From positions 23,031-87,030 of the IMG/VR virus record IMGVR_UViG_3300005095_000008: a stretch of 64,000 nt of DNA. One strand, given 5' to 3'. Of the stretch, positions 9,424-56,272 are shown piece after piece. Made by a program: the position numbers and the translations under genes. How positions within the stretch are numbered: position 1 is the stretch's first letter; every line of letters starts with the position of its first letter. The DNA is from a virus. The notes under the pieces were generated by a model. It saw only the letters and a list, made by a program, of their open reading frames with translations. It was not told where the DNA came from and did not search any database.

Positions 9424-9444
9424 CTTAATTAAGCTAGATGTAAT
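9413..9444. terminator. 32-base palindrome holding two convergent stop codons
   Basis: Perfect 32-base palindrome (core AGCTTAATTAAGCT). The TAG of the papain-like gene and the TAA of the sigma-4-like gene both lie within it. Confidence 0.75.
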
Positions 9445-9779: not shown

Positions 9780-9844
9780 TCGTTTACTCCTATTACATAC
9801 ATACAGTTTATAAAGTCATTTAAAACATATCAACTTGACGTTTT

Positions 9845-27068: not shown

Positions 27069-30000
27069 TCATGAATTGTTTTCTAATTCATTTAAACGTT
27101 TTTCCAAAGCGTCTATTAAGTTTTGTTGTTTTTCTGCTGTTTCGATTAAAACGTCAATTCGCTTATCTTGTTCATTAATGTGCGAATCTAATTCTTGGAT
27201 CGCTTTGGTAACAATTGGCATAAGCTCTGCGTATGCAATTGTATATTTTTCTGGATTTATATCGTCAAATAAGCTTGTGTCTTTAAGTACTGGAAATTTC
27301 TCAATAAGCTCTTTGAAATCTTGCGCGATAAAACCAATTTGTGTTCCTTTTCGACCAGGTGAACCATCACGTCTGTTCCATTCAAATGTTGAAGGCTTTA
27401 AGAACCTAATCGCGTCTAACCCAACAGGAATCTCTTGAATGTTTTTCTTATCACGTTTATCAGAGAGAGATGATATTGATGAAACGTTACATCGTAAGGT
27501 TTCAATAGTTGAATCTCCTAAAACAACGACATTGCTTTCGCTCGCGCTGTTTGGTTCTGCGTTATAACCTAGTAATGTAACATAACTTCCAGTAAGGCCA
27601 GTGTTACCAGAATAAGCGCCTACAACAGTACATTTTTCTCCGCCTTTCCAGCTTCCTCCTGCGTCGTAACCAATAAGCGTATTATAATTACCGATATCAT
27701 CACTATCTGGAATACCGGCAAACGCGCCTATTGCTGTGTTTGCGACACTATCTTCAATTAGACTTACTGAACCTCCTAATGCTTTTCTACCGTATGTTGT
27801 TGTATTTTCTACCATACTAATATATTTAACTGTCGATAGGCTTCCGTTAGCTTCTGTTGCGTTAACCAAAACTCTAGAATTTCGATGTGTAAATGAACTA
27901 ATAGCAGAACCATATTCTACTGTACTAGTTGTAACCATAAGAGATGAAGACGGGATTGTATTATTTTGCATATTTGCTGTTAATAACACATAACTATCGG
28001 CCGATACGATGTTCCATTCTGTGTTCATGCTGGCTACGCTATCATAACCATTCCTATCACGCAGCCATTCCCATAGATAATCAGCTCTATCTGGTTCTCC
28101 AGCATGTGTTTGCACACAAGAGTCAGAAACAAGCTGTAAACCTGCTTGATTTGTCTTTCGTCTTAAGCGGAATCCTGGACCATAAATAACATCTTGCTCT
28201 AACCCAACACCAGACTCAATAGATCCTGCAAAGTAGTTAGGAACATCACTATGGATATAAACGCCATATGTCGAACCGCTAAGTTCGTCGTCGTAAGACC
28301 CGTAAAATAAATATGATTTTTCACATTGATCTGCATAAGAAAAATCTATACGACTTTTAACTCCGTATGCGGTATTTAAAGTAGCAGCGTGACTGTCTAT
28401 ATGAACAAAACCATATAAACCTGTTGCTATATATGTACCATTATCATTATCAACATCAATATCGTCAGTAACCCAATATTCAAAATGTCCAGCAGTTGCT
28501 TCTCCTGAACGTCCTGCTGTAGGACTTTTTGTAATATATGTTTTTACTCCAATCTCTTTGCTAAATGCATTTACGCTATCGATAGTATTTGTATTCTTTA
28601 CACTAAGACGATTTATCGTTCCATATACTTCATATGGCTCACTTGTTTCTTGCGTAATTAAATAGTTATACAAACCTGTGATACTATCAGGAGCTCCTGT
28701 GTTGTGATATGCGATATTATATAAACCTTTACCATGTGTAAAATCATCACCAAATTCACTATAGTTAACAAATGATTCAAATATTAAGTCGTTGTCATTT
28801 CTTTCTGTATTTCCTGCAAAACGTGTATCGAAGTATAGATGTCTATACGTGCGAGTATCTGTAAGCGACGCAGCATTATCTAATCTGAATGTCTTACGAT
28901 TAAAGATTATTGAATCGTCTATCCCATCATTAGTAATATCATAATAACGTGTATCGATAGGATTGCCATTAATAGCCCAATAATCTTTACCATCGTTATA
29001 GACCCATTCAATATACGACATAAGTGTATCGTTAACATGCGGTTGAATTGTAAATTTTTCACCTGTGTCGTATAAATTTAAAATAACGTCTGTATTGTTA
29101 CCATTTAATGTGTATAGTCCCAATTCATTATGTTTTAATATACTAAACTTGTCGTCTCTATCGCCAATGTATAATTGACCTTTAAGATAACTTTCAACGT
29201 CACTATCGATGTATATGCCATACACATTTTCATTAACAGTGCTATTGTATTTACCATAGAATAAATACGACGCGTCTACATTATCAACGTTATTAAAGTT
29301 TAATTCTGCATTATACCCATATACGCTATTAAAAGTTGCAGTGGTACTTTGTACGTCAATTATTGATCTAACACCATATGCATTTGTAGCACCATTATCC
29401 ACGTCCGTATCACTGTTATAATACGTTAATGCATTATAGGAACCAATCATTTCATATGTTGAATCTGACGTTGGAGATTTCTTAATCCTAACAGACGATC
29501 CGATTTCAGAACTCACGCCATCGATATGTGTTGCATCTAAATTAATATCAATATCAATACCTAACAGTTTATCGATAACTGTTCCTGGATATGATTGCAT
29601 AAAGTTATTTATACCAACGGCGTTCGTCAAGTTTTGTGTGCCAAGTATAAATTTATTATTAATACCAATAGCTGCTGTAGCGTCTGTACCTACTGCCGTA
29701 GTGTTAGAAAAACCAGATACGATATAGGTTTTATCATTAAGATCTGTGTTGTTTATAAATACACTACTTAAACCAAAATGAGCAGTATCTACATCGCCAC
29801 CTAAAGTTTGATCTCCGCTTAATGTTAGTGATTTAATGTTAAAACCACGTAACGTCAATGGTGTTGTTAACTGTACATCATATGTAATTGTGTCAATCTC
29901 ATGACCATTATATTTCCATATGTCAGCACCTCTTGTATAATCATTTTTATACCACTCAATAGTCTTACCGTTAGTAGGTGTAATAGTAAATTTACTATTA

Positions 30001-32486: not shown

Positions 32487-32555
32487 TATTGTATCCTTTT
32501 TTATATTTATAGTGGTTAAACTAATTCAATAAAATGGTCTATGAACCAAAATACG

Positions 32556-32583
32556 CTATAGAGTACCATATGGTACTCTATAG
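32556..32583 (-). terminator. Palindromic terminator after fibre 2
   Basis: Identical to the palindrome after fibre 1, suggesting that the terminator was copied or exchanged together with the gene end. Confidence 0.75.
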
Positions 32584-32584
32584 G

Positions 32585-35500
32585 TTAATTGTTTTCTAGT
32601 TCTTCGATTCTAGATGTAAGGTCATTGATGACTGATAGCAGTTCTGAAATTGTTTTTTGTTGTTGTTCTACTTTTTCATCTAGCTCTTGAAGTGCTTTTG
32701 TAAGAACTGGAATCATGGCTGTTTCAGTAATGATAAGTCTTTCTTTATTCTTATCTTTTACTATTACATTTTCACCAAAGTATTCTAATTCTTTCTCAAG
32801 CACTTCTTGTGCACCAAACCCATAATGCTTTATAGTATCTTTTTTGGTACCATCAGGTTTTCTATCTTCGTATCTAAATCTATCATCATAGACATACGAT
32901 ATTGGTCTAAGTTCTTTTACAAATTCCAATGATGATGGTAATGTTTCTATATCTGTTTTATCTCGTAAGTCAGATGGTGTATCCCATTGAACTTTACACA
33001 GAGCAGATGTGATGTTAGCATTACCCATAATGATTTGGTTATCATCTAAGATATCAAAATCACCTTGACCATCACCTGCTTGATAACCGATCGCAATAGA
33101 GTTTGTAACTGTTACTTCTTCTTCTGGACCAACATCATTACCAATAAACACACATTCAACAAGATCAAGACATGTATTCGCAGACCAATGTCCTATTACA
33201 ACGCTATCTTTATAATAAGAGTTTTTAGACATAGTGTTAGTACCTATCGCAATATTGTGCTGCGAGAAGTATGGTGTTTTTAAAGCGTTAGATCCGATTG
33301 CGATATTATTATAGTGCGCGTCTACATATCTGTTATTATCAGAGTCAGTCGGTTCTGGTGTTGGACTATAAAATGCATAATCGCCAATGGCGATATTCTT
33401 AGAGCTATCATTACCATCAACTCCTGGAGCCATCATACCCATTGCGTATGCGCCAACAGCCGTATTAAACTGTTGTATAGCGTCAGATGTGCCTGTGTAT
33501 GATAATGCATGATAGCCAATAGCAATTGCATAGCTTAGTATATTTGCATTTAATCCTGCGTTAAGACCAATAAAAGAGTCATAATAACTTACGTCAATGA
33601 TTGGTTCGATAGATCCTGCCATGTATTTTAAACGCCGACTTGATAATATAAGCTCACTATCGTAGGAATCATTTAACGTTATAGAAAACGTACTTGTGTC
33701 TGTACCGATGCCATTATTCGCAATAATCTCTCCACCAAAATACGATGGAAAATTACCATCGATATATATACCGTATATCTTGCTTGTATTAGAGCTATAT
33801 GTAGAATTACCATAAAACATAGCTGCTGTTCCAAAATCTCCAGAATCAGAATCAATGTTTATAGTCGACATATAACCAGCTAATATATCGCTTGTAGCGT
33901 ATTCTGAATCTATTTGAATTTTAGATCTAAACCCGCTTATGGTGTCAGCGCCATTATCATATGCATTATCATCATCATCTGATTTAGAGAAATAGTCAAT
34001 ATCAATAAGAACATCATTTCCTATAAGAACACCAGAGTGTTTACTTCTAGGGTCTTTATTTAACGATACCTTAGACCCATAGAAATTTGTTATTTCGTTA
34101 AAGTCTAAACATGTTGTCGTAAATTGTGTTCCTATCAAACTTGTTATGACCGATGCGTTAGATGATGCTGACAAACTTAACATTGTTTCATAAGAATTTT
34201 CTTTTCTAGCGTCATAAGATATTGTTAAAGGACCTCCTAAATATGAAAATGCTGTTGACGGTAAATATAAGTTATATGCTATCGATGGTGTGTTCGTCTC
34301 ATATCTACCTTCATATAAGGCGTAAATGTTATTAGCGTCATCGTATGTGATATTAATACGAGAAGAATGTCCATACGCTTCTGTATAGATATTTTCTGGG
34401 TTCTGTACATCTAAACTTGAGACTGTTCCTACTATACTTTCAGCATCATTTCTGCCAGTATCAGCAATATCCTGAACTCTTACCACATTATATGCGCCCC
34501 ATAATTTACCACTAAGAGACGGATTTACTGATTTTATTACTTCTGATTTGCTTCCAATAAAAACACCGTCATCATAACTACTTGTTAATAGATCAATTTT
34601 AGAATATGTTGCGACCGTCTCAGTGTACACTTGAGCATCTGACTCGATAGTAAGTTTGTTATTAATCCCAAAAACATTTTCACACGACATTGCTTCTAAT
34701 ACAGTTTCATTTAGTATCGTATTTGCCGCAGTCAAATCCGTAGCGAATTTAGTATATTTCTTATATGCGTTAACAGTTAGTGTGTTACTGTTTAATGTTG
34801 TATCAGGAGAGTATGAATTAAAATTATAGGTAATGTTATGTATTGTATCTTCACTAATATCTACTGTACCATTATCACAATTAAAAATGATAGATTGTGC
34901 CGTGCTCGAGTCCGATGCAAACTCGTAATCAAGCGTTCCGCTATCAGTAACAGAACTATCTGAACCAACAACATCGCCTTCTAAAAGAATGCGTTTATCG
35001 TTAATTGTCCAGTAATCTCCATTATCACCATCATTCCTCCATTTTAACGAACTAAATGACGTACTGTTATCTTTAGGTGTTATTTCAAAAATTGGGTCAA
35101 CGTCATATAAGTTAAGATATATACGCAAATCATTATTTGACGCGCCCTTCAATGTTATTTCGTTACGACGAATTGTAGTGCGTTTATCGTCTTCCATACC
35201 TATCGTTAAAGTAGTATCGTTATACATATAGACATTATTTGTACTATCAAATATTAATCTATCAATTCCATTATTCGCCATTGCAAAGAAACCAGTCGTG
35301 TTAATTCTTGAAGACGTGTTTCTAAAATCAATATCCTTTGGAATAGACATGGTATCTGTAGTAAACTCATATCTATACGCTATAGCGCCATCTGCTTGCA
35401 GACCTGGGTTAATAACTATATTACCATCAGCTGTAACTAAATTGTACTCTGACGTAATCTCTTCTACCGTATCAAAGCCTAAATCTGTCGCTAAATCTAG

Positions 35501-38500
35501 CAAATACACATTGGTGCGAATACGTTCTCCAGCATGTGTCATAAATATAGAGTCTGACGCGTATACGAGACCACCTTGGTTCGTTACACGTCTTATTGAG
35601 AATGAATTATCACTCCCATTATAACGCATAATATATTCACCTACTTCTGCACCACTATAGATAGACCCTCTAAGGTAGTTTGGTACATTAGAGTCAATAT
35701 AGACACCATAGCTGTTAGGTAGTATTGGACCATCATATATTCCGTAATAGAGTGCGTTTCTATTACTGCCTACGCCATCTTGTGAAGTTATTTTAGCATA
35801 ATTAGCATATAAAGTATTAAATGTATTTTCACTACTACCTGTGCGTATATTAGAATATGTTCCAGCAACATCGACTGCGCCATTATCATGGTCTGAATCT
35901 ACGATATAAACTTCATTATATGCCGCCCTAATATAGCCAGAATCCTTTACAGATGCGTCGCTCTTAAGAACTCTATTATATACTCCAATAGTGTTATTTT
36001 GTGGTGATGTAGAGTATAAATACACGTTATTGCGAGTTCCATAAATTGCTCCAGTAACTTTAGCATCGTTTTTAATATATAAAACACTTCTTACTGATGT
36101 AGCATACACATACTCACCAGAATTAAGTTTTGGATAAATCATATAATTTGTTACATCATAACAGCTAGTATTATAATATGCGTTATCGTACATATTGTAA
36201 GCATAAAGTTTTTTATCGTTTAAATCTACAATTGGTTCATAATTTAAAAAACGATATGTGACTTTATGTTCTCTATCGTCTGTTAATGTAAAATCACCAG
36301 TAATCGTTACTGCTTTATTTTCAAATGTTCTGTATTCGTCACTAAACCCTATTGCTGTATCCCGTCGAATTGTATCAATTTCGTTATCGTTATAGATCCA
36401 AATATCAGTTTTTCGTAGAGAATCATCTCTAACCCATTCTAATGTTTTTTTGTAACTATCATTTACAGACGGACGCATAATAAATCCACTACAGTTATCT
36501 CTGTTGTTAAGTTCCATTTCAACGACATCGATACCGTCATTTGTTCCGAGATAAATATTATTGCTGTTGGAAATAATTGTGTATAGACTACCATCATTTT
36601 GTCCGAATTTCCACATATGACCTTTAGCGTTTACATTGCTACCTGTAGCTTGTAGAAATATATTACTATCGTGGAATAACTCTAATACACCATCTCCATT
36701 TTGTCTAATGCCTGTACCAGAGTCTCCTAAGATCAATGCTTTACTATTATCCATACTAGAAATACTAGATGTTCCAATTTGTACAGAGCCTGCAAAGTAG
36801 TTAGGTGTATCTGAATCGATATAAATACCCCATGCATTCTGTAAAATAGTATTTTCCATATATGAACCATAAAACAACGCATTAAAATTAGAAGTTACTT
36901 CCCCATTCGTTTCGATACGCGATGATGTCCCAATAATCGAATCAAATGTATTGTTGTTGTTACCAGCATAAATTTTAGAATACGTAGCAACAATATCGGC
37001 AGCGCCATTATCATGGTCAGCTTCTGTGATGTATATTTCATTATGCGTTGCTCTAATATATCCAGAATCCTTTACAGATGTGTCGCTCTTAAGAACTCTA
37101 TTATAAGAACAGACAGTATGGTTTTGTTGCTCGCTAGAAAAACTATATACGTCATTACGCATACAATATATCACATCACTTACTTTTGAATCATTTTTTA
37201 AATGTGTAATATTCATACTGCCATATATATAATTATAATTTCCTTCTTCTAAAACTGGATAATTATAAACATTTGTTACACTATATGCGTCATTATGGTA
37301 ATGTGCTTCGTTATAAATATTTTCTATAAAAAAGTTATAACCATTTGTATCTACATTTGCTTCATAATCGAACAACAAATATTGATTTCTATGTAACGCA
37401 TCGTTAGTGAGTGTTACGTCACCTATTGCTGTTGTGAATTGACTTTTCAACGAAATCGTAGCGTCATAAACAGTAAATGTTAAATTAGCGTCAATTGTAG
37501 CAATTTCATTACCATTATATGTCCAAATATCTGTTCCTCTGGTGCTATCGAATTTAACCCACGAAAGTCTTTTATAGTCCGTACCACTTTCATCACTTTG
37601 CGAAATGTTAAACGCACTACCATCGTCAAGAAGATTCATACGTATAGTTGTGTCTGGAGAAATAAAATTAATTTCGTTTTTATATAAATTTAAATAAAGT
37701 TTATTATAAATATCACCAATGCGCCAAGTTCTCGGTGTAGGTGTTTCTATTGCATTAGAGTTAGCTTGTAAAAATATATTTTCATCTTGAAAGAACTCTA
37801 ATACGCCTGTGCCATTTTGTCTAATGCCTGTACCAGAGTCTCCTAAGATCAATGCTTTACTATTATCTAAAGCACCAAATAAATTACACGTGCCAATACC
37901 TAACGAATTTGCGGTCCAAATACTATCTCCTATAGAAACCGTAGGCGTTCCGTTATTAGCCCATACAAATTGATGTCCACCAGCCATTTCACCATATGTG
38001 CCATTATTAGAATGGTAATATGCTGCACCATATAAATTTCCAAAGTCACTGCCGTTAGCGTTTAGATAATACGCTTCTCCAATTGACCAAATATGACTCA
38101 CTTTTGTAGAATCATATACGCCATATAAACCAGCTGTTCTATTGTCCGTGTCGCCTTGTGTTATTTTACCATAAATTTTATCATCAATATCACTTCGTAG
38201 GTATTGATCTGCTGTTACACCACCTAATGTATCGATACCATCTACATATGTGCTAATAATATTATAACAATTATTATCTTTATCGTGCTCTATCTCGTAG
38301 ACCATGCCAGCTTTAATGTCACCAGCTTCTAATGAGTTCCCATTTTTATATAGTGGTTTTGATAGTGCGCTACCAGTGATTTTAATTTCTACTTCGCCAG
38401 TATTGTCTTCTTCAGCTTGAAACTTAAAAATACAACTAGAATTTAAAATATAACTCGCATTTGTTTTACCATATTTATTCTCTAGTGTTAGTTCATTTGT

Positions 38501-38707
38501 ACCAGTTGCTTTAAATACTGACTTTAACCTCAATTCATTTAATGCATAGACCAACTCTTTCTCACCAAAGGCGGTGTAATCTCCACCTGCTTCGTCAATT
38601 ATCTGTTTTAAATTACCAACAACAATATTTACCTCATCGGCATATAGTTGTCCTTGATGAGAATCGTCATAATTATACTTCTCTTCAATGTCTTTTATAC
38701 TGGCCAT
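32585..38707 (-). CDS. Giant tail fibre 2 with S74 chaperone domain (2040 aa)
   Basis: Paralogue of fibre 1. The N-terminal 150 residues match it closely (SHQGQLY, KELVYALNELRLKSVFKATG, ENKYGKTNASYI), so both likely dock on the same tail site. The shaft holds two copies of a roughly 375-residue unit (LILGDSGTGIRQNG, DHDNGA...TYS, YGIYIDSDTPNYFAGS). Near the end, repeats such as NIAIGSNAL, NIAIGTNTM and SIAIGYQAG resemble head repeats of trimeric adhesins. The S74 chaperone begins at Ser1912 with Lys1917 (SDLRDK) and ends in a coiled coil. Both fibres present gives the phage two receptor-binding options. Confidence 0.88.
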   Translation of the reverse strand: MASIKDIEEKYNYDDSHQGQLYADEVNIVVGNLKQIIDEAGGDYTAFGEKELVYALNELRLKSVFKATGTNELTLENKYGKTNASYILNSSCIFKFQAEEDNTGEVEIKITGSALSKPLYKNGNSLEAGDIKAGMVYEIEHDKDNNCYNIISTYVDGIDTLGGVTADQYLRSDIDDKIYGKITQGDTDNRTAGLYGVYDSTKVSHIWSIGEAYYLNANGSDFGNLYGAAYYHSNNGTYGEMAGGHQFVWANNGTPTVSIGDSIWTANSLGIGTCNLFGALDNSKALILGDSGTGIRQNGTGVLEFFQDENIFLQANSNAIETPTPRTWRIGDIYNKLYLNLYKNEINFISPDTTIRMNLLDDGSAFNISQSDESGTDYKRLSWVKFDSTRGTDIWTYNGNEIATIDANLTFTVYDATISLKSQFTTAIGDVTLTNDALHRNQYLLFDYEANVDTNGYNFFIENIYNEAHYHNDAYSVTNVYNYPVLEEGNYNYIYGSMNITHLKNDSKVSDVIYCMRNDVYSFSSEQQNHTVCSYNRVLKSDTSVKDSGYIRATHNEIYITEADHDNGAADIVATYSKIYAGNNNNTFDSIIGTSSRIETNGEVTSNFNALFYGSYMENTILQNAWGIYIDSDTPNYFAGSVQIGTSSISSMDNSKALILGDSGTGIRQNGDGVLELFHDSNIFLQATGSNVNAKGHMWKFGQNDGSLYTIISNSNNIYLGTNDGIDVVEMELNNRDNCSGFIMRPSVNDSYKKTLEWVRDDSLRKTDIWIYNDNEIDTIRRDTAIGFSDEYRTFENKAVTITGDFTLTDDREHKVTYRFLNYEPIVDLNDKKLYAYNMYDNAYYNTSCYDVTNYMIYPKLNSGEYVYATSVRSVLYIKNDAKVTGAIYGTRNNVYLYSTSPQNNTIGVYNRVLKSDASVKDSGYIRAAYNEVYIVDSDHDNGAVDVAGTYSNIRTGSSENTFNTLYANYAKITSQDGVGSNRNALYYGIYDGPILPNSYGVYIDSNVPNYLRGSIYSGAEVGEYIMRYNGSDNSFSIRRVTNQGGLVYASDSIFMTHAGERIRTNVYLLDLATDLGFDTVEEITSEYNLVTADGNIVINPGLQADGAIAYRYEFTTDTMSIPKDIDFRNTSSRINTTGFFAMANNGIDRLIFDSTNNVYMYNDTTLTIGMEDDKRTTIRRNEITLKGASNNDLRIYLNLYDVDPIFEITPKDNSTSFSSLKWRNDGDNGDYWTINDKRILLEGDVVGSDSSVTDSGTLDYEFASDSSTAQSIIFNCDNGTVDISEDTIHNITYNFNSYSPDTTLNSNTLTVNAYKKYTKFATDLTAANTILNETVLEAMSCENVFGINNKLTIESDAQVYTETVATYSKIDLLTSSYDDGVFIGSKSEVIKSVNPSLSGKLWGAYNVVRVQDIADTGRNDAESIVGTVSSLDVQNPENIYTEAYGHSSRINITYDDANNIYALYEGRYETNTPSIAYNLYLPSTAFSYLGGPLTISYDARKENSYETMLSLSASSNASVITSLIGTQFTTTCLDFNEITNFYGSKVSLNKDPRSKHSGVLIGNDVLIDIDYFSKSDDDDNAYDNGADTISGFRSKIQIDSEYATSDILAGYMSTINIDSDSGDFGTAAMFYGNSTYSSNTSKIYGIYIDGNFPSYFGGEIIANNGIGTDTSTFSITLNDSYDSELILSSRRLKYMAGSIEPIIDVSYYDSFIGLNAGLNANILSYAIAIGYHALSYTGTSDAIQQFNTAVGAYAMGMMAPGVDGNDSSKNIAIGDYAFYSPTPEPTDSDNNRYVDAHYNNIAIGSNALKTPYFSQHNIAIGTNTMSKNSYYKDSVVIGHWSANTCLDLVECVFIGNDVGPEEEVTVTNSIAIGYQAGDGQGDFDILDDNQIIMGNANITSALCKVQWDTPSDLRDKTDIETLPSSLEFVKELRPISYVYDDRFRYEDRKPDGTKKDTIKHYGFGAQEVLEKELEYFGENVIVKDKNKERLIITETAMIPVLTKALQELDEKVEQQQKTISELLSVINDLTSRIEELENN
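36678..36751 (-). repeat. Direct repeat in fibre 2, copy A
   Basis: The 56 bases at 36696-36751 equal 37812-37867. They encode GDSGTGIRQNG and neighbouring residues of the repeated shaft module. Confidence 0.85.
37794..37867 (-). repeat. Direct repeat in fibre 2, copy B
   Basis: Partner of 36678-36751, 1116 bases away; marks a tandem shaft unit of about 370 residues. Confidence 0.85.
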
Positions 38708-46762: not shown

Positions 46763-46788
46763 TATGAGAGCGTCTATACGCTCTCATA
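46763..46788 (-). terminator. Hairpin at end of RNA polymerase beta' gene
   Basis: A 10-base stem (TATGAGAGCG) with a six-base loop; the beta' stop lies inside and TTTCTTTTT follows on the minus strand. Confidence 0.65.
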
Positions 46789-48780
46789 CTTTTTCTTATA
46801 TTCTTCGATTGATTCCTGTTTGTAATACAGCGCATCTAATGGGTGAGATGGCTTATTACTCGTCTGGAACATATATGGTTTAAAGAGTTTCTTTGTAACA
46901 GCGTTATAACCCATTGCAGCACTCGCACTCCGTCTATCAATAGCATTTGCTAATGAAATCAATTGAGGGTCTTCACTTCCTCGTCCTAAGTCAAAGTTAT
47001 TCTTCTCTAACTCTTTAGCCATAAAGGTATAAATCATACCACTGATATTCGCAATGTTGATACTCAACTTCTTGTTAATCAGCATGAACAATGAACTCAA
47101 CAACTCTTCAGGTGTTTCACTACTCTTACCACCTTTCAGAATGTTTCTGTTTTTCACCATTGAACGTATCTCATTCACTAATGTGTAGAAGTCATACTCT
47201 TTATCTTGTAACTTGATAATAGGAGCAGAACTCCTAAACTTTGTTACGTCTAATAATACATTGTCATTATCGTCTGCTTTAATACCCGCATTAACGACAT
47301 GCACTAAGAATTTCTTTGTAAAGCTTCCGAATCTATTCCCTTGCACAATCGTACACGGATAAACCTCTTCACCTTTATCTGTCTCTATTACTACTGTCAT
47401 TTCACTAATATTGCTCAATTTCTCATAATTGATTCTGTTTAACGTAGCGATATTCTTTACTTCTAACAAACCATTACACTGTTGTCTATCGATAACAAAT
47501 GTAATCTTATTTGCTCTTTTAAAGATGTCTTTCTTTAAGGCAAATCCAGATGGTCTTGTCTCGAATATCTGTGCTGTAATGTCGTCAATACTAATATTAC
47601 CAGACTCTGCAGAACCCATGTGGTGTTTTGTAGACAATAGCGCTTGTGACGCTGCTTGTGTCACATTCGTAGTCGTAATGTGACCAACATTTGCTTTAAC
47701 TGGTATATTAAATGCCAATCCACCAAAGCAAGTAGCGCATACGCCATGTTTATCAGGATGTTTACACTTCAACACATTTCTAAGTAAAATTGTCTTACCG
47801 ACAATATCAGTAGACTTAGACGTGATGCGTTTCAGTTCATCATCAGGATTAATTTTGTAATACGCACCTATCAGATTCACTAAGTCACCTTTATAATCGG
47901 CACTCTTAGGCGTGACATAGAATGATACATATTCCTCTGTACCACAATCACCAGGATAGATATGTTCTAAATACATTGCTCCTAATTGTAACTCTCTAGA
48001 GAGATACTCTGATTGTTTAATACTGCTCGTACTACTCATCAATGCGAATGCTGCAGATCTGGATTCTACAGCCATCTCATAGATATTTCTTAATCCTTTT
48101 GTAAAACTACTTAGTATTGGTCTCTTAAAGATAGTAGAATCTATCTCTATAATAAAACCTCTAATGCCGAGTAACTGCTTCACTTGTCCTTTATTAACGA
48201 CACCTGCCCTATACATTTTAGCGATAGGGTTTCTTTCATATTTTGAATCGTTCATAAGAATGTCGTCCAATACATCATGTACGTATTGTATTGCTTTACC
48301 TGTCTGTTCTTTTTCAGCTTTCGCAATTGCTGCTTTCAGTTTAGGGTGTGTCGTAATTGCAATCAAGTCTTCAATGTTTACAGATGTGATGCCTGTACTC
48401 ATATCGTCATTCGTTTCGTTAAAGATGAAATTCGTGATATCATACATGATACCATAGAGTCGCAATGCCTCTTTTTGTAAGTCAGCATGATGAATTGTGA
48501 TAATGTCAATCAGATCTTTCATGATTGTTTCTAATGCGCTGCTCAACGTTCCACCAGAGAAGAAGCCATTTTCATAATATGAGCGTGTGCTATAGGTATG
48601 TTTAATAGGAAGTTTATAGCCACTCTCTTTGATTAGGCTAAACACTACTCTATCCATCATGAGCACACCAGGTGTAACTTTTGCGGTAACACCATCATCA
48701 TATACCACCTCAACAACCTCATTGATCGTTTTATAGAAGCTATATGGTTTATCACATATTTCACTCGCTTTTATTTTCAT
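46774..48780 (-). CDS. Phage RNA polymerase beta' subunit, C-terminal part
   Basis: A 668-residue fragment of a multisubunit RNA polymerase largest subunit. Seen: QLLGIRG (202-208) and PILSSFTKGLRNIYEMAVES (221-240) through SEYLSREL, the bridge-helix and following region; DCGT (278-281), C339, C348 and C351 give a complete second zinc-binding site; SQALLSTKHHMGS (378-390) is the counterpart of the trigger-loop region. The catalytic NADFDGD part is not in this gene and must be encoded elsewhere, as in phiKZ-like phages that split both large subunits. Start at 48780 (MKIKASEIC) has GGAG upstream. Confidence 0.92.
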   Translation of the reverse strand: MKIKASEICDKPYSFYKTINEVVEVVYDDGVTAKVTPGVLMMDRVVFSLIKESGYKLPIKHTYSTRSYYENGFFSGGTLSSALETIMKDLIDIITIHHADLQKEALRLYGIMYDITNFIFNETNDDMSTGITSVNIEDLIAITTHPKLKAAIAKAEKEQTGKAIQYVHDVLDDILMNDSKYERNPIAKMYRAGVVNKGQVKQLLGIRGFIIEIDSTIFKRPILSSFTKGLRNIYEMAVESRSAAFALMSSTSSIKQSEYLSRELQLGAMYLEHIYPGDCGTEEYVSFYVTPKSADYKGDLVNLIGAYYKINPDDELKRITSKSTDIVGKTILLRNVLKCKHPDKHGVCATCFGGLAFNIPVKANVGHITTTNVTQAASQALLSTKHHMGSAESGNISIDDITAQIFETRPSGFALKKDIFKRANKITFVIDRQQCNGLLEVKNIATLNRINYEKLSNISEMTVVIETDKGEEVYPCTIVQGNRFGSFTKKFLVHVVNAGIKADDNDNVLLDVTKFRSSAPIIKLQDKEYDFYTLVNEIRSMVKNRNILKGGKSSETPEELLSSLFMLINKKLSINIANISGMIYTFMAKELEKNNFDLGRGSEDPQLISLANAIDRRSASAAMGYNAVTKKLFKPYMFQTSNKPSHPLDALYYKQESIEEYKKKYESV

Positions 48781-48961
48781 CAGAACGCTCCATACTAACA
48801 ATTTTAAAATAGTTATTTCCTACATCATATGCTTTTACAGCACAGTGTGCATTTTTTATAACCCACATACGTTCTTCGTTTAAACTGGTAAGGTAATCAT
48901 AGCGTAGATGAGCTAAATTATATTCGTTACCAACGATAAGTTCACATAATTCTATATTCAT
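48761..48961 (-). CDS. Small protein between RNA polymerase genes (66 aa)
   Basis: A 66-residue protein set between beta and beta'. Its ATG directly follows the beta TGA, with GAGGAG upstream, and its end overlaps the start of beta' by 20 bases, so the three are one coupled operon. Composition is mixed (CELIVGNEYNLAHLRYDYLT; GNNYFKIVSME). An accessory or omega-like subunit is possible from position; sequence does not decide. Confidence 0.7.
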   Translation of the reverse strand: MNIELCELIVGNEYNLAHLRYDYLTSLNEERMWVIKNAHCAVKAYDVGNNYFKIVSMERSDENKSE

Positions 48962-49896
48962 TCTTCATTCTCCTCGACATAAATTGTTTCCACGCCTCCA
49001 ACATTAAGAATGGCCTCTAAGAGATTCACAGGTTTGTCTCCATTCCAACCACAACTACTTCTATCAACTACTTTAGAAATAGCAGTTGGTTTGTCTGCTC
49101 TAAGGATATTGCCATAGATATGTTTATGTGTCTCTACAGACGCAGATCGGTCTCTTAGTTCAGCAAGCGCTTCTCGACCAGCATACGATGCATACAATCT
49201 TGTCTCTGTCTCTCCTGTTTTCACAGGATTAGGATTCCAAGGCTGTCGTTTCTTATTCGCTTTACTCGTAGAGATTGGTACACCAAAGTGATTGATTTTA
49301 GCAGTAGACGCTGCAAGGCCAGTATCAGCAATCTTAGACAATACTAACATGTAAACCGTTTCAATCGCAATTGGATCTTCAGAGCTATATGTAATACCAT
49401 CTAGTGTGAACGTAATTGGTGTTTTCTTAACATGATATGGTGTATTGATGAGATCAGCTACAATATCATGTGGTGTCTTTTTATTATCGATAGGGAACAT
49501 AACATAGAACTCATGCTCCACAATTTCAGTAATGACTTCTAGAATTTTCTGTGTATTTGTACACTTGCTATAGACTTCATACTGCTGTACTTCTAGTATT
49601 TTTAGATAGTCTAGAATGTACTTCCACAATGGTTCTATAGTATTCTTAAAGAATGTTTTGTTTGTGTTTGGTAGATTTAGTTTCTTCTTACCGTTTGTCT
49701 CTGTGATAAACTCTTTTAGTTGTTCTTCTACATAACGTTTTACTTTACGTGCTGTAGAGGTGATGTATCCATCATAGAGTTTACCAGAGTTCATACGAGA
49801 CGCTACAGATTTTTGGTCCATAATAGCATCTGCTCTTATGCCATTAGCATCTACTGGCATTTCCTCTTTTGGAACAATTTTACAGACGACTCCTTT
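48958..49896 (-). CDS. Phage RNA polymerase beta subunit C-terminal part, exon 2
   Basis: The second exon carries the end of beta. It resumes at KGVVCKIV, continuing the GxKMxGxxGxKG motif from exon 1, and then shows the universal NGIRADAIMDQKSVASRMNS segment (bacterial beta: P-x-D-I-x-x-x-P-x-x-x-P-S-R-M). Residues after that form helices that pack with beta'. Read alone, the frame would begin at an ATG at 49905 inside the intron, without a good ribosome binding site, which supports splicing. The mature protein would be 389 plus 312 residues. This exon is followed by the 66-residue gene and beta'. Confidence 0.88.
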   Translation of the reverse strand, partial: KGVVCKIVPKEEMPVDANGIRADAIMDQKSVASRMNSGKLYDGYITSTARKVKRYVEEQLKEFITETNGKKKLNLPNTNKTFFKNTIEPLWKYILDYLKILEVQQYEVYSKCTNTQKILEVITEIVEHEFYVMFPIDNKKTPHDIVADLINTPYHVKKTPITFTLDGITYSSEDPIAIETVYMLVLSKIADTGLAASTAKINHFGVPISTSKANKKRQPWNPNPVKTGETETRLYASYAGREALAELRDRSASVETHKHIYGNILRADKPTAISKVVDRSSCGWNGDKPVNLLEAILNVGGVETIYVEENEE

Positions 49897-50218
49897 CGCT
49901 TGCATTCAATATGGTTCGTTAGACCATACCCGCAGCATTACCTGCAGCTGCATGTCTCCATGCAGGCTAGACTATATCTTCACCATACAGCTATGCTGGT
50001 TAGGTGTCTCCCATTTCGAGTTCACTTGAACCCTACGTCTTACGACTAGTCGTTGAACGTTCTCCTATACGGAGCTTCGCTGCTGATTGTCTCTATTCAC
50101 ATTTTATCAAACATTCATAGACTATTTCTAATCTATTGTAGTAATGTGACGTCACGAGAGTTCCCAGCAATTAGAGAGAATTCACATTAGATATTTCTAC
50201 CTAAGTGGACTATTATTA
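49897..50218 (-). ncRNA. Group I self-splicing intron in RNA polymerase beta gene
   Basis: A 322-base insertion between GAT (Asp codon, ends 50219) and AAA (Lys codon, begins 49896). Read on the minus strand it holds group I core elements in order: P-like AATTGCTGGGAACTC, Q-like AATCAGCAGCGAAGCTCC, R-like GTTCAACGACTAG and S-like AAGATATAGTC, with R and S able to form P7. The 5' exon ends in U and the intron ends in G, as required; GAUU can pair with AGUC to form P1 with a U-G pair at the splice site. Joining restores the conserved GLYG-D-KGVV motif. There is no internal endonuclease gene. Exact ends are inferred. Confidence 0.88.
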
Positions 50219-51385
50219 ATCACCATAGAGTCCGCTCATTTTTGTTCCAATGTTTAATTTATGACTATATTCTACCACTACTTCTACAAAATATAAATCT
50301 AATGGAGATTGATTCAGTACGTTTGTTAGTCGTGGGTCGCGTATACTATAGAGATCCACCATCATCTTATGTAACTTATCACCAATGACTATTTCATTGT
50401 TATACTTTGCCTGTATCTCTTCTATTGTACGTATGAATGTATTGATAAAATCATTCATGCTGTTTACATACTTTTCCATCTGCTGGTCTATTTGAGTGTA
50501 TGTATATAGTTTCTTCTGTTTTGGAGATTTAATGACTTTTATGTCAATAACTTTACCACCAGCCTTACTGGTAAATTGACACTTGTCAAACAATGGTCTT
50601 GGGCATCTCAAGTGTCTATTGCTCATCAATGCTGGGTAAAGACTCTCGTCGCCATTTTCATTACTGTTTCTAGTAGCAAACAAAATACCATCATCATTGA
50701 CATATTCTCCAATATCAGGCATGATTTTGTAATACTCATCATCACCATAGAGGTTCAATGGTACATCTTGATATCCAAACTCTAACCTAAATGTTTCATA
50801 TGTCTTGAAACTTCCTCTTTCTGCTAATTCATCAGAGATAACAATTGGGTCTTCTCCTACGTCTTTGAATGATGCCAGACAGATATTTACATTTAACCCT
50901 ATCGTCAATTCTCCTCTCTCATTTTCAGAATTTGTTCTTGATAATTTTGTACCTGCTGGTAACTCATCACCATACTCGATATCGTCTAACGCATTCGTTT
51001 CACGATGTGTAAAACCAAACTTAGGGTTAAACTTCTCATGGTTTGGTATGTTGATATAATTCAATTCATCTTTCACTAAGTCGTGATAGATAACAAACCT
51101 CTCTACAGTCGTATCGATTCTATCCGCTGTTCTTCCATCGTACCTATCAATGATTGCTAGTACTTTACTGTCGTTCTCTACCTTACGACTAAAGAGTGTT
51201 TTGATAAACTCTTCTTCCGTGCCAGACAATACGATCTTAGGTTCGCCATTGTCTAATGGAATGTACTGTCCTAGAAAGTTAGAGAACATAACGAATCTTG
51301 AACTACTACACGCCATACCAAAGTTACTAAGACTTGCGAACCCTAATAGCCTTCTATCTATTCCCAATAATGTGCTATCATCCAT
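50219..51385 (-). CDS. Phage RNA polymerase beta subunit C-terminal part, exon 1
   Basis: A 389-residue exon. It begins MDDSTLLGIDRRLLGFASLS. IGLNVNICLASFKDVGEDPI (about 173-192) corresponds to the bacterial G-x-N-x-x-V-A-x-x-x-W-x-G-y-N-F-E-D motif of the beta active-site half, and it ends with NIGTKMSGLYGD, the GDKMxGRxGNKG loop interrupted by the intron. Without splicing a stop follows at 50218-50216. It has a promoter-like motif at 51451-51460 and a leader hairpin at 51413-51434. Role: part of the phage's own transcription enzyme, which frees it from host polymerase. Confidence 0.9.
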
Positions 51386-51412
51386 TCTATCTCCTTTATT
51401 TTGTGTACAACT

Positions 51413-51434
51413 AAAAAATCCATAGAGATTTTTT
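51413..51434 (-). promoter_or_regulatory. Leader hairpin ending in T-run before RNA polymerase gene
   Basis: AAAAAATC and GATTTTTT pair over a six-base loop in the leader of the beta gene. It could be an attenuator or a processing site. Confidence 0.4.
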
Positions 51435-51450
51435 AATTGAATGACATTTA

Positions 51451-51460
51451 AATAATATGT
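51451..51460 (-). promoter_or_regulatory. Promoter-like motif before RNA polymerase operon
   Basis: ACATATTATT on the minus strand, 66 bases before the beta gene. A leader hairpin (51413-51434) lies between them. Confidence 0.45.
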
Positions 51461-51500
51461 ATCTAAATTTTTTTAGAGTATATACCACGAAAGGACATGC

Positions 51501-51845
51501 ATGGCGCTATATGAACTCTGTACCTTTGCTGAAAATAGATTCAGTAATTCTGCTGAAGAGATGCTAAACGATAATGCGCTTAGTATCTTTAAGGCGCAAA
51601 ACGAACATTCTGTTGAAATGCAAATAGAACAAGAATTAGCAAATCGATATGTAGGAGACTTTTATGGTCTATTACAAGAACTAGGCAGAAAGGTAAATAC
51701 ATTCTATATAGAAACCGTCCTTAATGGTTTTAACTCAAGTGTTGACTACGATGGACGTACTACTATAAAACTACTAGAAAACGATTTTAGTAAACGGATA
51801 CTAAAACTGAAACCTATAGAGAGTAGCATTCCAAAAATAAAATAG
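51501..51845 (+). CDS. Hypothetical protein (114 aa)
   Basis: A plus-strand, helical, acidic protein of 114 residues (FAENRFSNSAEEMLNDNALS; VEMQIEQELANRYVGDFYGL) beginning after CGAAAGGACATGC. It is divergent from the RNA polymerase operon and convergent with the Gln-rich protein gene, with a shared hairpin between (51847-51874). No family recognised; size and helicity would suit a small virion or regulatory protein. Confidence 0.65.
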   Translation: MALYELCTFAENRFSNSAEEMLNDNALSIFKAQNEHSVEMQIEQELANRYVGDFYGLLQELGRKVNTFYIETVLNGFNSSVDYDGRTTIKLLENDFSKRILKLKPIESSIPKIK

Positions 51846-51846
51846 C

Positions 51847-51874
51847 ACATAGAGTACCAAACGGTACTCTATGT
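51847..51874. terminator. Bidirectional hairpin between convergent genes
   Basis: A 12-base stem (ACATAGAGTACC) with a four-base AAAC loop between the 114-residue gene and the Gln/Pro-rich protein gene. Confidence 0.7.
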
Positions 51875-51880
51875 ATGCTT

Positions 51881-53266
51881 TTATCTGTATTGAGGCATGG
51901 ACGCGTACGGTCCATTGAAGGGTACACCAGGTGCAGCACTATTCATATATTGCTGTTGACCATAGGCTGGTTGGCCGTATTGTTGTTGCATCGGCATTCC
52001 TGTAGGTTGAGGAGTGATGCCTTGGTTCATAGACCGCATCGGTTGTCCATACATTTGCTGTTGAGGCGGACAATACGCTTGTTGCATTGGAACACCAGTA
52101 GGTTGTGGAATAATAGGTTGGTTCTGCGGAACCATTGGTTGCTGGTACTGTTGGTTACGAGACGGGCCTCCACCATACAGCAATTGCTTAACCTCTTCTT
52201 CGCTCATTACATCACTGTTTGATTGCGGTGTAGTTTGATGTACTTGTTGTTGTGTTGGTTGCATTGTCTGTGTTTGTTGTGGCGTATCATCTACCATAGC
52301 TTGTTGCAATGCTGCCTGATATGGATCAAATTGCTCTACATTATTGCTACGGTTATTCAGATCAGTCGTCATTACGTTTGCACCATTTTCAGTTACTTCT
52401 GGTAACATAGCGATTTCTGTTGCGTATTTCTCAAAATGTAGCTTATCCATATCGTAATGGATTGGCACAATTGTTTTATTCACAATTTCTTTGTCGATGA
52501 ATTCTAACGACTTTAATAGATCATTGATTCTATTCGTAAACATCATATAGCCTTTTGCTAATGCAGTGAACGACGGACTATAGTCGTTATTACTATATGA
52601 TAGAATGAAGTTTTCATTCTCTGTTCCCTTCTTAAGCAGGAAGTTTACAAGAATCTTATAGACACGCTTCTCTTTGCCTCTAAGGTTAGACTCTTCTACC
52701 ACATCCAAAATCGGAGAGTCTAACACAATACCTCTGTAAAACTTTTCACCTTGTACCTCAATGTTTTTCTTCAAATAGTACTTAGCGATTCTGTGCTTAT
52801 TAGACGTCACAGATTCACTTACCAATTTCGTCCAATGGTCCATTACACCATCGTCTATCAGTTCCTTAATGTTTTTAGAACGTGCTTGTTCTAGTAGAAT
52901 TAAGAACTGATTTAAAGAGATAGGTAAATCTTTTACATTGTCTAGTCTACCTAATTGCAATAACAGGCGAGATGCTGCCGCTAACTGCACATTCGCAGTG
53001 ATTTCTGCAATCTTCATGAGTTTCTTGACAATAGGCGACTCGCCTTTCACAAGGTTCTCTTTGAGTGGGTTAAACAGGTATTTAACAGGTTTGAATTCTC
53101 CTGTTTCTGTCGCAGCAGTTAATGTTTCGATATGTTCTTTTGTAGGTAGTACAACAGGCAAACCGTCGATCGTTAAGTTCTTATTGTTGTATTTAATAAA
53201 ACCATCTGACGTTACGTCTAGTTGAAATGACTTGATAATATCTTTATATGCTTCTAATAATCCCAT
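51881..53266 (-). CDS. Large protein with Gln/Pro-rich repeat tail (461 aa)
   Basis: Residues 1-310 are globular and mainly helical. Residues 315-461 form a low-complexity tail rich in Gln, Pro, Tyr and Met, with repeats IPQPTGVPMQQ and ITPQPTGMPMQQ about 40 residues apart. Such tails often drive multivalent binding or phase separation. The gene ends a three-gene operon of large unknown proteins (56272 down to 51881) with spacings of 2-10 bases, which suggests a shared complex. No domain recognised in the head part. Confidence 0.72.
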   Translation of the reverse strand: MGLLEAYKDIIKSFQLDVTSDGFIKYNNKNLTIDGLPVVLPTKEHIETLTAATETGEFKPVKYLFNPLKENLVKGESPIVKKLMKIAEITANVQLAAASRLLLQLGRLDNVKDLPISLNQFLILLEQARSKNIKELIDDGVMDHWTKLVSESVTSNKHRIAKYYLKKNIEVQGEKFYRGIVLDSPILDVVEESNLRGKEKRVYKILVNFLLKKGTENENFILSYSNNDYSPSFTALAKGYMMFTNRINDLLKSLEFIDKEIVNKTIVPIHYDMDKLHFEKYATEIAMLPEVTENGANVMTTDLNNRSNNVEQFDPYQAALQQAMVDDTPQQTQTMQPTQQQVHQTTPQSNSDVMSEEEVKQLLYGGGPSRNQQYQQPMVPQNQPIIPQPTGVPMQQAYCPPQQQMYGQPMRSMNQGITPQPTGMPMQQQYGQPAYGQQQYMNSAAPGVPFNGPYASMPQYR

Positions 53267-53276
53267 GTTTTTCCTT

Positions 53277-54725
53277 TTAATTTTCTACTATTAATGACAA
53301 TAGTCCTTGATAGTCTTTGAGACTACTTTGTAGTTTCTCTTCCGTCGTGATAACTGGGTCAAATAATGAGTTACTATATGTAGGAATAGCAAACACTATT
53401 GGTGGCTGACCATTAACAGATACAGATATTCTGCTCTCATTGATAAGATCAATGTTTACAAGAATATCGATCGCAAACGTATTGTTTAATGTTAATTGCG
53501 GTAGAATAAGTGTCATGAATTGATGTTCAAACTCAATAACAGATTGTTCTACATTTAATACAGGAATTTCCGTATTATAATTCAGTGGTGTAAACACTGG
53601 CACACCGCCTAACACACCTGTTTGAACTGTAAACATAATTGATGTCAACATTAGTTTACTTGCTAGCGCTGATGCAGACTCTGAAATCGTAGATGCAATT
53701 CTCGCCTCTTGACTAGTGACTGCTAATGTTTCTGGATCGTTTGTTAGTAGAATGTTTTGTTCATGATGTTGAAACGCACCTGTGTCAATTGGTACTTGGT
53801 CTGCAATGGTCCATCTGATGGAAGTTTTATTTTGAACGCCTGGATCTACAGCGACAATATCGTTATATGTAAACTCACCAGTATTCATTCCTTTCATTGT
53901 AGAAATTTCTCTCATGAAAGGCGTGTCTACGACAGATGGTTCTGCAAGCGTGCCAGCACCGCCCATGTAGATATCAGATGGATCATTTGTCACACTAGCA
54001 ATAGATGCAGATGCAGCTGTTGCATTGATAATATCAGTGACTTGATTTGCACCAATTCTATTGTTTGCTTTGCTTGTATCTACAACACCAGAAACTTTCG
54101 ATATTACATTGGTAACTGGAATGTAATCGCCATATCTATGTGTTGTATGTAGTTCAATCAACGTATCAATTGGTCTCAATAGTCTAAATTTACTATTGTC
54201 ATATTCTAGATTGTGCATGTTGGTTGTTCTGTCATAGACCAATGTAAATGCTGAGTGCGGCATGTGCTTAATCGTATTTGTTCCAGGTATGACGGTCTCT
54301 ATTACGTTTACGATACTGTTTACATAGAATATCATATTTGGATCTATTTGACCTGTTGCTTTATTTGCACCAAGATAATTGGTATACCCTTGAATATATG
54401 ATGCAAAGACAGAACCATCACTTCTTTGTGTTTTTGTTTTCATAATGAATATAAAACGTTCTGTCTGCCAACCATTATCAATACCTACCTTTAGGTCTGG
54501 TGCCATACCCATTGACAACAGTTCAGGTGTTTTGGTAGCAATCGCTTCTGCTGATACTTTACCAAATCGATTGATGTCCTCCTCAATCAGTCGATAGTCT
54601 CTGTTTGTTAGCTTGAGATGATACCCCCTTTGTACCATATCATTCTTTTGCTTTGTATTAATCAGTATTAAATCTGTTACGTGCGTCTGTGGTTGAATGT
54701 GTTGTTCTTGTCCGAATGCATCCAT
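53277..54725 (-). CDS. Hypothetical protein, possibly virion-associated (482 aa)
   Basis: A 482-residue protein without membrane spans, starting after AAAGGAGAATAATA. Strand-rich sections (VYDRTTNMHNLEYDNSKFRL; IDILVNIDLINESRISVSVN) alternate with an Ala/Ser-rich region in the middle (INATAASASIASV). The pattern would suit a virion protein, but I recognise no family. It is packed between two large unknown genes of the same operon. Confidence 0.7.
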   Translation of the reverse strand: MDAFGQEQHIQPQTHVTDLILINTKQKNDMVQRGYHLKLTNRDYRLIEEDINRFGKVSAEAIATKTPELLSMGMAPDLKVGIDNGWQTERFIFIMKTKTQRSDGSVFASYIQGYTNYLGANKATGQIDPNMIFYVNSIVNVIETVIPGTNTIKHMPHSAFTLVYDRTTNMHNLEYDNSKFRLLRPIDTLIELHTTHRYGDYIPVTNVISKVSGVVDTSKANNRIGANQVTDIINATAASASIASVTNDPSDIYMGGAGTLAEPSVVDTPFMREISTMKGMNTGEFTYNDIVAVDPGVQNKTSIRWTIADQVPIDTGAFQHHEQNILLTNDPETLAVTSQEARIASTISESASALASKLMLTSIMFTVQTGVLGGVPVFTPLNYNTEIPVLNVEQSVIEFEHQFMTLILPQLTLNNTFAIDILVNIDLINESRISVSVNGQPPIVFAIPTYSNSLFDPVITTEEKLQSSLKDYQGLLSLIVEN

Positions 54726-54727
54726 TA

Positions 54728-56272
54728 TTATTCTCCTTTATGTAGTGCTATTAATAACTTGGCAATTTGCTCTCTCAAATCTTCAGGAATGGAGACTGCT
54801 CTACTCTTTCCTTTTAGATATTTTGGCGTTGCTAGATACCTATAGCTACTATTGTATAACATTACGACTAAATCATTAATTGCTTTCGCGATCAAATCTT
54901 GTGTTTGTAACGGTTTGTTTTTTATCTCTAGTTCTTTGTCTACAGAATAGTATTGCTTAAGCTCCTTTAACGTATCTTTACCAATATGCTCTTTCCCAAG
55001 TGTAGATTGAATTGGTACATCTTCATCTGTTCTTAACGCACTAAGCAGTAATGCAATTTCTGGGAAACCTCTATACCATGCAATTGTAAATCCTAATGCC
55101 ATCACATTGACAAGGTGCTCGATATCAAGATAGAAGATTGCTTCAGGATCAATAATGCCTACCTCTCGTTTACCATTATCTGGTGTAATAGAGATAATCC
55201 ATATCATTAACTTTACGATGTTTGGATCGATATCATTACTCTTTGTCATAGGTCGTAGGAACTGTAAGACATCATTCATTACACCGTCTGTATCTGTAAT
55301 GTTGTAGAAGCGCAACAATTTATGTGGATCATCCGTAAAGAACTTAAACTCTTCTGGAATACCAACCATTACATCTGTTGCCATTCTATAGATTTCTAAC
55401 GAAGACTCTGTCTCTTCACCATCAGATTTTGCAGTCTTTTGACGCACATTGTTTGGTGGTTTGATAGCGTCTTTAATAGAGCTATAGATGAATGTGATAA
55501 GGTTTGTGGTAATCTTATCATTACGCGGTATATTGACAGGCATGATTTTAAAGAGTGTCAAACCTAACAGATAATATTTAATATCATCTGTAGAAATCAT
55601 CTTTTGTAAGAGTACTGTCTTGTTTGCGGTACCACTCATATTGGTACTGATGAATCTATCAAAGCTACCAAGCAGTTTCTGTACTGGTTTACTATTCATG
55701 ATATGGTGAGAATCCATAATCATTTGCACAAGAGAAAGTTCTTTCGTTTGCATAATGATTGCTGATGGATTGCTATATGTAAACTCACCAAATGGCCCTA
55801 CAATTGCTTTACTTACTACAGATAGTGCTACCAGATCAATGTACTCATCTTTGGTGTAGGTTTGTACTCTTGTACCTAATCCATCTTTAACAATAGATTC
55901 GTCAAAGTTCTCTTTCAAATTCGATGGTGCTCTGATGTAATCAAGCGTCTGAATAAACGCTTTGATTTCTTCAATATCTAGCATGTCTAGAATGCTGGTG
56001 ATTACTCTACCGAAACTCTCTACAGGACTATCGAGAATATCTGAAGATGCTTCGAATGCTTTAATACATAGGTCAAAGTATCTATCTTGAAACTCTTCGC
56101 CTTTGAAGTCCATGTATTGTTCGAGTAATTCGAACTGGTGTGGACTATCTAGTTTATGCTTCTTGGTCTTGTCGAAGAGTGATTTGACGACAAAGACAAC
56201 TTCGTCCTCCCCGTGTCGTACGGAGAGAGACAGTTTTGCTGTGTTGTTGACATTTACATAACGGAATTCCAT
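54728..56272 (-). CDS. Hypothetical protein (514 aa)
   Basis: First gene of the three-gene unit, starting after AAAAGGAGCATAC, with a promoter-like motif at 56331-56340. The 514-residue protein is mostly helical with an N-terminal strand section (MEFRYVNVNNTAKLSLSVRH). No motif or known domain is visible. It keeps company with the tail-rich protein at 51881, so the three probably work together. Confidence 0.72.
   Translation of the reverse strand: MEFRYVNVNNTAKLSLSVRHGEDEVVFVVKSLFDKTKKHKLDSPHQFELLEQYMDFKGEEFQDRYFDLCIKAFEASSDILDSPVESFGRVITSILDMLDIEEIKAFIQTLDYIRAPSNLKENFDESIVKDGLGTRVQTYTKDEYIDLVALSVVSKAIVGPFGEFTYSNPSAIIMQTKELSLVQMIMDSHHIMNSKPVQKLLGSFDRFISTNMSGTANKTVLLQKMISTDDIKYYLLGLTLFKIMPVNIPRNDKITTNLITFIYSSIKDAIKPPNNVRQKTAKSDGEETESSLEIYRMATDVMVGIPEEFKFFTDDPHKLLRFYNITDTDGVMNDVLQFLRPMTKSNDIDPNIVKLMIWIISITPDNGKREVGIIDPEAIFYLDIEHLVNVMALGFTIAWYRGFPEIALLLSALRTDEDVPIQSTLGKEHIGKDTLKELKQYYSVDKELEIKNKPLQTQDLIAKAINDLVVMLYNSSYRYLATPKYLKGKSRAVSIPEDLREQIAKLLIALHKGE

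Follow-up and report, generated by a model that had tools for sequence, protein, structure and literature searches.

The window analysed here, a 64,000-nt stretch of viral DNA from an 87-kb parent record, carries on its minus strand an RNA polymerase gene whose reading frame is broken by a 322-nt insert in the loop of the active centre (Table 1). Exon 1 ends with CTC TAT GGT GAT and exon 2, which matches Pfam RNA_pol_Rpb2_6 (3.8e-8), opens with AAA GGA GTC GTC, with the 3′ end of the insert reading GCAAGCG|AAA. When the 322 nt are taken out, a single frame of 701 codons results, which reads GLYGD|KGVV across the join, and in the predicted spliced message GGTGAT is joined to AAAGGAGTC. In an earlier note, made from the letters alone, it had been proposed that the frame stops after GLYGD and resumes at KGVV; this is borne out base for base, and the coordinates given there are exact. 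The last base of exon 1 is a U and the last base of the insert a G, both of which fit the group I splice rule as the note had held, and the guide matches the exon. Since the insert opens with three in-frame stops, an unspliced message would be translated only to D389 and yield nothing but a 389-residue fragment. The next RNA polymerase gene probably encodes a gp74-type beta′ subunit, to judge from its motif LSTKHH, and the order beta to beta′ is the same as in phiKZ-like phages (compared with KTN4_095-097).

Table 1. Features of the interrupted beta gene, its intron and other genes named in the text (window positions)
Feature	Position	Strand	Description	Basis
Exon 1	50219-51385	minus	Residues 1-389, C-terminal beta subunit, phiKZ gp71-73 homologue; ends KMSGLYGD	Open frame; tblastn to jumbo-phage beta genes; profile alignment with 7ogp_C and 7s00_C
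Group I intron	49897-50218	minus	322 nt, 41% G+C, without endonuclease frame	RF00028; in-frame join; covariation
In-frame stops	50210-50218	minus	UAA UAA UAG, first bases of intron	
Internal guide	50208-50210	minus	GUC, pairs with exon GAU (50219-50221)	P1 with splice-site U.G pair; 14-intron table
P2 hairpin	50187-50204	minus	Helix 1	Double changes at 6/6 pairs
P3 5′ strand	50174-50179	minus	UCUCUC, partner GGGAGA at 50007-50012; helix 2	100% of cells paired; double changes at 5/6 pairs
P element	50163-50172	minus	5′ strand of P4	RF00028 alignment
Q element	50079-50088	minus	3′ strand of P4	RF00028 alignment
R element and P7 5′ strand	50047-50058	minus	GACUA (P7)	RF00028 alignment; P7 100% paired in 12 introns
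P7.1 and P7.2 hairpins	50018-50046	minus	Helices 7 and 8	Double changes at 9/9 pairs
P8 hairpin	49981-50006	minus	Helix 9	97.9% of cells paired
S element and P7 3′ strand	49968-49980	minus	UAGUC (P7)	RF00028 alignment
P9 hairpin	49948-49965	minus	Helix 10	Double changes at 6/7 pairs
Terminal guanosine (omega G)	49897	minus		Common to 14/14 introns tabulated
Exon 2	48958-49896	minus	Residues 390-701 and stop; first residue is invariant K390 (KGVVCKIVP)	
Next RNA polymerase gene	46774-48801	minus	Probable C-terminal beta′ (phiKZ gp74 type)	Frame; order against KTN4_095-097
HNH protein	15098-15385	minus	Freestanding, 95 aa	CxxC/CxxC zinc pattern

In a tblastn search the spliced protein matched 312 phage records, and the matches listed are nearly all phiKZ-type jumbo phages at about 20-31% identity. 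As a query on its own it retrieved zero relatives from IMG/VR, and a profile was required to reach them. The profile of these relatives aligns end to end with the phiKZ gp71-73 (7ogp_C, E=7.5e-267) and AR9 (7s00_C) chains, and it matches cellular beta subunits more weakly. Because of this full-length alignment, the interrupted gene is assigned to the C-terminal beta subunit of a phiKZ-type non-virion RNA polymerase. The earlier description of a phage beta gene with an insert in its catalytic loop therefore holds for the gene and for the position in the loop, but the product corresponds to the C-terminal half of a split beta (gp71-73 type) and not to a whole beta subunit. In the alignment of relatives K382 and K390 of the window protein are invariant; their phiKZ counterparts are K386 and K394, the pair of conserved lysines in the active centre (PMC8287921), and these lysines touch RNA (PMC7618050). 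The insert lies between the codons for D389 and K390, and thus directly 5′ of the second invariant lysine in the active-centre loop. The E. coli equivalents are K1065 and K1073.

The proposal that the insert is a group I intron was put to a covariance search, the test which the earlier note had named as able to overturn it, and a full core was returned. RF00028, the Rfam family of group I introns, matches positions 49948-50227 on the correct strand over model positions 1-253 with 92.5 bits (gathering score 50, E=1.9e-22 for the 64-kb window). This is the sole Rfam match in the window and the sole RF00028 match in the parent record, and the score is the highest, or a fraction of a bit below the highest, among the beta-loop introns scored. 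The P, Q, R and S core sequences which the earlier note had reported in the insert were all located through this alignment. Support for the fold comes from 12 aligned introns of the beta loop, onto which a 51-pair structure drawn from the window sequence was laid. Standard pairs are found in 91.6% of cells and double changes at 35 of the 51 pairs; the covariation score is 0.559, compared with 0.209 in shuffles and at most 0.149 for slid structures, and none of 500 shuffles matches any measure of the structure. As a structure derived from a single sequence biases the cells-paired control (control b), we place the weight on the double changes. Covariation within the pseudoknot helices P3 and P7 is seen in P3 only, which is paired throughout, P7 being almost invariant. 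The P7.1 and P7.2 hairpins between P7 and P3 are backed at every pair, and on this ground the intron is assigned to subgroup IA. An internal endonuclease is absent, as had been stated before: in the sense frames of the insert, open stretches reach a few dozen codons at most.

The exact 5′ splice site receives independent support from a comparison across introns. Each of the 14 introns tabulated has a U opposite a guide G at the end of its 5′ exon, pairs at positions -2 and -3 as well, and a G as its own last base. Exon and guide vary together, with GGU/GCC in 12 of the 14, GAU/GUC in the window and AGU/GCU in L045. The first intron of Bacillus phage BpSp, inspected by eye, follows the same rule, its exon GGAGAUUU pairing with the guide GGGUCUCC. 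P1 of the window intron is short, with three pairs followed by a 2 x 2 mismatch, and that of phiKZ is built likewise; a P10 pairing, sought by eye in the window intron, is weak or absent and none was convincing. P1 as placed by the Rfam alignment proved to be the wrong pairing, and the guide was reassigned once relatives had been compared. Moving the splice sites back by one codon (YG|AKGVV) would leave an A as the last intron base and a guide that does not fit, and this alternative was dismissed. A group II intron (reverse transcriptase/maturase, domain V) was ruled out with RF00028 as the only Rfam match, an intein was ruled out as the insert opens with three stops, and a frameshift was considered and dropped.

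The core, its conserved pairing, the match between guide and exon, the exact frame and the introns of relatives at the same boundary can all be read directly from the DNA, and we infer that the window intron splices. We are nearly certain that a subgroup IA self-splicing group I intron lies between the D389 and K390 codons of this phiKZ-type beta gene. According to the predicted pathway, the guide GUC would pair with the exon end GAU so that the U.G pair marks the 5′ splice site, a guanosine held in P7 would cut there, and the freed exon end would then attack after the terminal G, giving a joined message and one protein of 701 residues.

An interrupted beta gene in phiKZ (gp71-73) had been named as a parallel in the earlier note, and this is borne out: introns were found at the identical codon boundary (HGG|KGV) in KTN4 (species phiKZ, locus L003) and in gp65 of PhiPA3 (L002). 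The KTN4 intron is a 307-nt group I intron (84.2 bits) following 393 codons, and exon 2 starts at the lysine to which the phiKZ structures give the number K394; the PhiPA3 intron has 450 nt (79.2 bits). The group I intron of FBPa36 is 1218 nt long (79.1 bits) and encodes an HNH enzyme within its P1 loop, and OMKO1 gave a tblastn match with an enlarged span like that of FBPa36. Like the window intron, the phiKZ intron, as read in KTN4, lies in the same gene and at the same codon boundary, has the same core fold and a P1 of a U.G pair, two further pairs and a mismatch, and is without an endonuclease. However, its exon/guide pair is GGU/GCC rather than GAU/GUC, its P1 is extended by a stem and its P5 region is shorter, its FBPa36 copy carries an HNH enzyme whereas the window copy has none, and the two same-site introns are not nearest kin in the intron tree. 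The PhiPA3 gp65 intron agrees with that of the window in gene and codon boundary but differs in its length and longer P1 loop. In the same phage the gene for the virion polymerase beta subunit, gp210, is interrupted by a group I intron following the residue that aligns with E. coli D675 (Birkholz et al. 2024, PMC11620839). Here too the group I intron of a jumbo-phage beta gene sits in one of its highly conserved motifs, although the subunit belongs to the virion polymerase and the intron has an active HNH homing enzyme (PMC11620839). The introns of Madawaska and BpSp are also of group I and lie within one to three codons of the window site; that of Madawaska, a Staphylococcus phage, has only 178 nt and sits one codon upstream, while BpSp has two introns around a 12-nt micro-exon, one of them with a LAGLIDADG enzyme. 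The td intron of phage T4, which also belongs to subgroup IA, likewise opens with an in-frame UAA and lies in a conserved motif of an enzyme, but it encodes I-TevI and its gene is that of thymidylate synthase.

Some further details of these phages may be recorded here. The group I introns of BpSp (KT895374; L008 3960-5720) flank the micro-exon GGGAACAAGGGT (GGG AAC AAG GGT, GNKG of the loop), the second of them carries the LAGLIDADG_2 enzyme, a third intron core lies a few dozen codons downstream, and the deposited gene models miss the introns. The Madawaska intron (L007 4018-4195) is a miniature below Rfam detection in which the P, R and S elements are readable, and relatives, for example PB50 (L014), have several more interruptions in the beta gene.

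Two readings of the locus would dispense with splicing. Exon 1 and the frame starting at ATG-49905 (MQAKGVV) might be two polypeptides separated by 322 nt of plain spacer, an idea favoured by the position of this ATG three codons ahead of K390 and by the fact that jumbo-phage polymerases are split elsewhere into several polypeptides (PMC7598289). We regard this as very improbable: the supposed spacer is a covarying group I core, the exon/guide match and the terminal G agree with splicing, the break would fall in the active-site loop beside an invariant lysine, a Shine-Dalgarno-like sequence is missing ahead of 49905, and KTN4 and L068 are without an in-frame ATG at the corresponding bases before exon 2. 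In addition, phiKZ gp71-73 is one 74-kDa polypeptide in the purified enzyme (PMC4666361), and the orthologous junction is therefore joined in phiKZ. We give next to no weight to the other reading, a decayed intron that no longer splices and has left the beta gene broken. An endonuclease gene has indeed been lost or was never present, and the contig is an 87-kb fragment of a genome in which a second beta copy is possible; against this, every core pair is intact, the RF00028 score is at or near the top of the beta-loop introns scored, the polymerase is expected to be essential, and both exons are open and conserved to their ends, with up to 37% identity to relatives over about 700 residues. The nearest relatives of the window phage in the beta tree are themselves only 37% identical, and no near-identical intronless sister is found among them.

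With a spliced intron as the preferred reading, its distribution among relatives becomes relevant. Relatives in IMG/VR were gathered by patterns inside exon 1, so that neither the interrupted nor the intact state was favoured, and the ranking of loci by single segments would, if anything, pick up too few interrupted genes. The loop is interrupted in 19 of 103 related loci and a group I core was identified in 18 of the 19, by an RF00028 match that is either direct or via a near-duplicate. The exception, L149, gave no RF00028 match at the gathering score and is counted as interrupted with its core unconfirmed, and L150, which ends near the contig end, was left out of the interrupted count. When intronless orthologues were aligned, a check suggested in the earlier note, they read straight through the loop; the loop is without an intron in Staphylococcus phage SA1 and in Phabio, which is PhiPA3's nearest relative in the tree. 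The interruption lies before the lysine in the window phage, phiKZ, PhiPA3, L045, L067, L068, L074 and L076, which upholds the suggestion of a recurrent site. It lies one codon upstream (G|GK) in Madawaska, L065, L069 and L086, at F|GNKG and KG|V in BpSp and within the following valine codon in L081. The enzymes borne by these loop introns are of several kinds: HNH/NUMOD enzymes in FBPa36, L065, L067, L074 and L086, DUF723 proteins with a C-terminal LIEYDGEQHF in L035, L046 and L081, a motif which to us recalls the Vsr-like family, and a LAGLIDADG_2 enzyme in BpSp (E=2e-20). Those of the window, KTN4, L068, L069, L076 and Madawaska are without an enzyme.

An insertion can be seen before and after the event in one pair of relatives. 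L081, with intron and enzyme, and the intronless L056 are 98.9% identical over 7.5 kb except for a precise 1597-nt insertion in the loop, and the same difference separates the contig sets L081/L082 (with) and L056/L023 (without). Substitutions between L081 and L056 cluster at the insertion: nine bases hold three of them, and their excess extends to about -360 and +190, the pattern to be expected from co-conversion of the flanking exon. This comparison of contigs shows insertion into the loop by a homing-like process for the relative L081, and not for the window phage.

It might be argued that the site intron was inherited vertically from a phiKZ-like common ancestor rather than gained repeatedly. 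The identical codon boundary in phiKZ, PhiPA3, the window phage and several contigs speaks for this, and many losses together with gene conversion could imitate part of the scatter described below; nevertheless we consider it unlikely. In a beta tree of 85 proteins, with the loop excluded, 12 changes are needed, and the well-supported branches require no fewer than 11 gains or losses (9 changes, 7 of them forced, in an earlier tree of 71 proteins), the tree being a quick one with some long branches and an interruption label that pools nearby sites. Introns are found at offset positions in the loop too. In a tree of 49 intron cores the site introns are scattered and form no clade (12 changes, 7 forced, with 109 of 500 shuffles as low). 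The window intron has as its sister there (95/97 support) an intron of KTN4 in or next to gp55, the beta′ gene, instead of the KTN4 intron from the matching codon boundary. For some site introns the nearest kin is an intron from another place on their own contig, as for L065 with L104. Because this tree rests on an alignment of only 289 columns, made with an HMM of the site introns, we hold the claim of multiple lineages with moderate confidence. Repeated invasion by different lineages appears more likely than single descent on this evidence, although gene conversion could blur the picture. A probable reading is that different lineages of group I introns converge on the lysine loop of jumbo-phage beta as a landing site and have invaded it repeatedly. 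Some of these lineages seem to move from gene to gene inside a phage family, at least three endonuclease families accompany them, and polymerase active-centre motifs may on this reading be a main battleground of interference between phages.

For the window intron itself, the simplest origin would be a copy that lost its endonuclease or arrived without one. It could persist because imprecise removal at the lysine codon would destroy the polymerase, and without an enzyme of its own this copy is unlikely to be mobile now. That it might be moved in trans by another phage endonuclease, such as the HNH protein at 15098 named in the earlier note, is highly doubtful. The protein exists (PF01844, 20.6 bits, just below the cut-off of 21.4), and relatives do bear endonucleases at the same site. 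However, this zinc-type HNH protein of 95 residues does not resemble the HNH/NUMOD and HNH_3 enzymes of the relatives' site introns, which makes its role in mobility only a guess; nothing links it to the intron locus, and a search of the parent record, a partial genome, for a trans-acting HNH enzyme found no support.

Group I introns at this boundary in phiKZ-type gp71/73 and in PhiPA3 gp65 are already known, and what is added here is the scale of the recurrence. Recurrence in the non-virion beta loop is undescribed in the reviews and intron surveys searched, which take in the original phiKZ and AR9 papers in part. Jumbo-phage records often list the pieces of a split beta gene as separate hypothetical proteins; these should be joined, and the guide/exon rule tells at which base. 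The well-studied case of PhiPA3 gp210 in the virion polymerase is extended to the non-virion polymerase and to many lineages, so that interference by intron endonucleases at polymerase genes may be common.

Several minor observations were made along the way. In KTN4 two group I introns with HNH/NUMOD-like enzymes appear to break the beta′ gene gp55 (50000-55500, L127), one within an NRAPTLHR-like motif (HRN|PTLQR) and one just upstream of the catalytic ADFDGD motif. Two close group I cores are present in the one beta gene region of L046 (3849-4144 and 5653-5972), L035 (5426-5698 and 7032-7356) and L045 (5767-6087 and 7691-7995), suggesting tandem or nested introns, and L035 repeats the peptide NKLTD just within its insert. 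On the minus strand of the window, two adjacent, very large frames of 1805 and 2040 aa (27069-38707) have N-terminal sequence in common and a C-terminal peptidase-S74-like chaperone segment (SDKRDK), and are likely to be paralogous tail-fibre proteins. On the same strand, consecutive frames of 116, 102 and 117 aa (9429-10499) form a tandem family with a sigma-like helix-turn-helix C-terminal segment, ERIRQIQNQALRKL.
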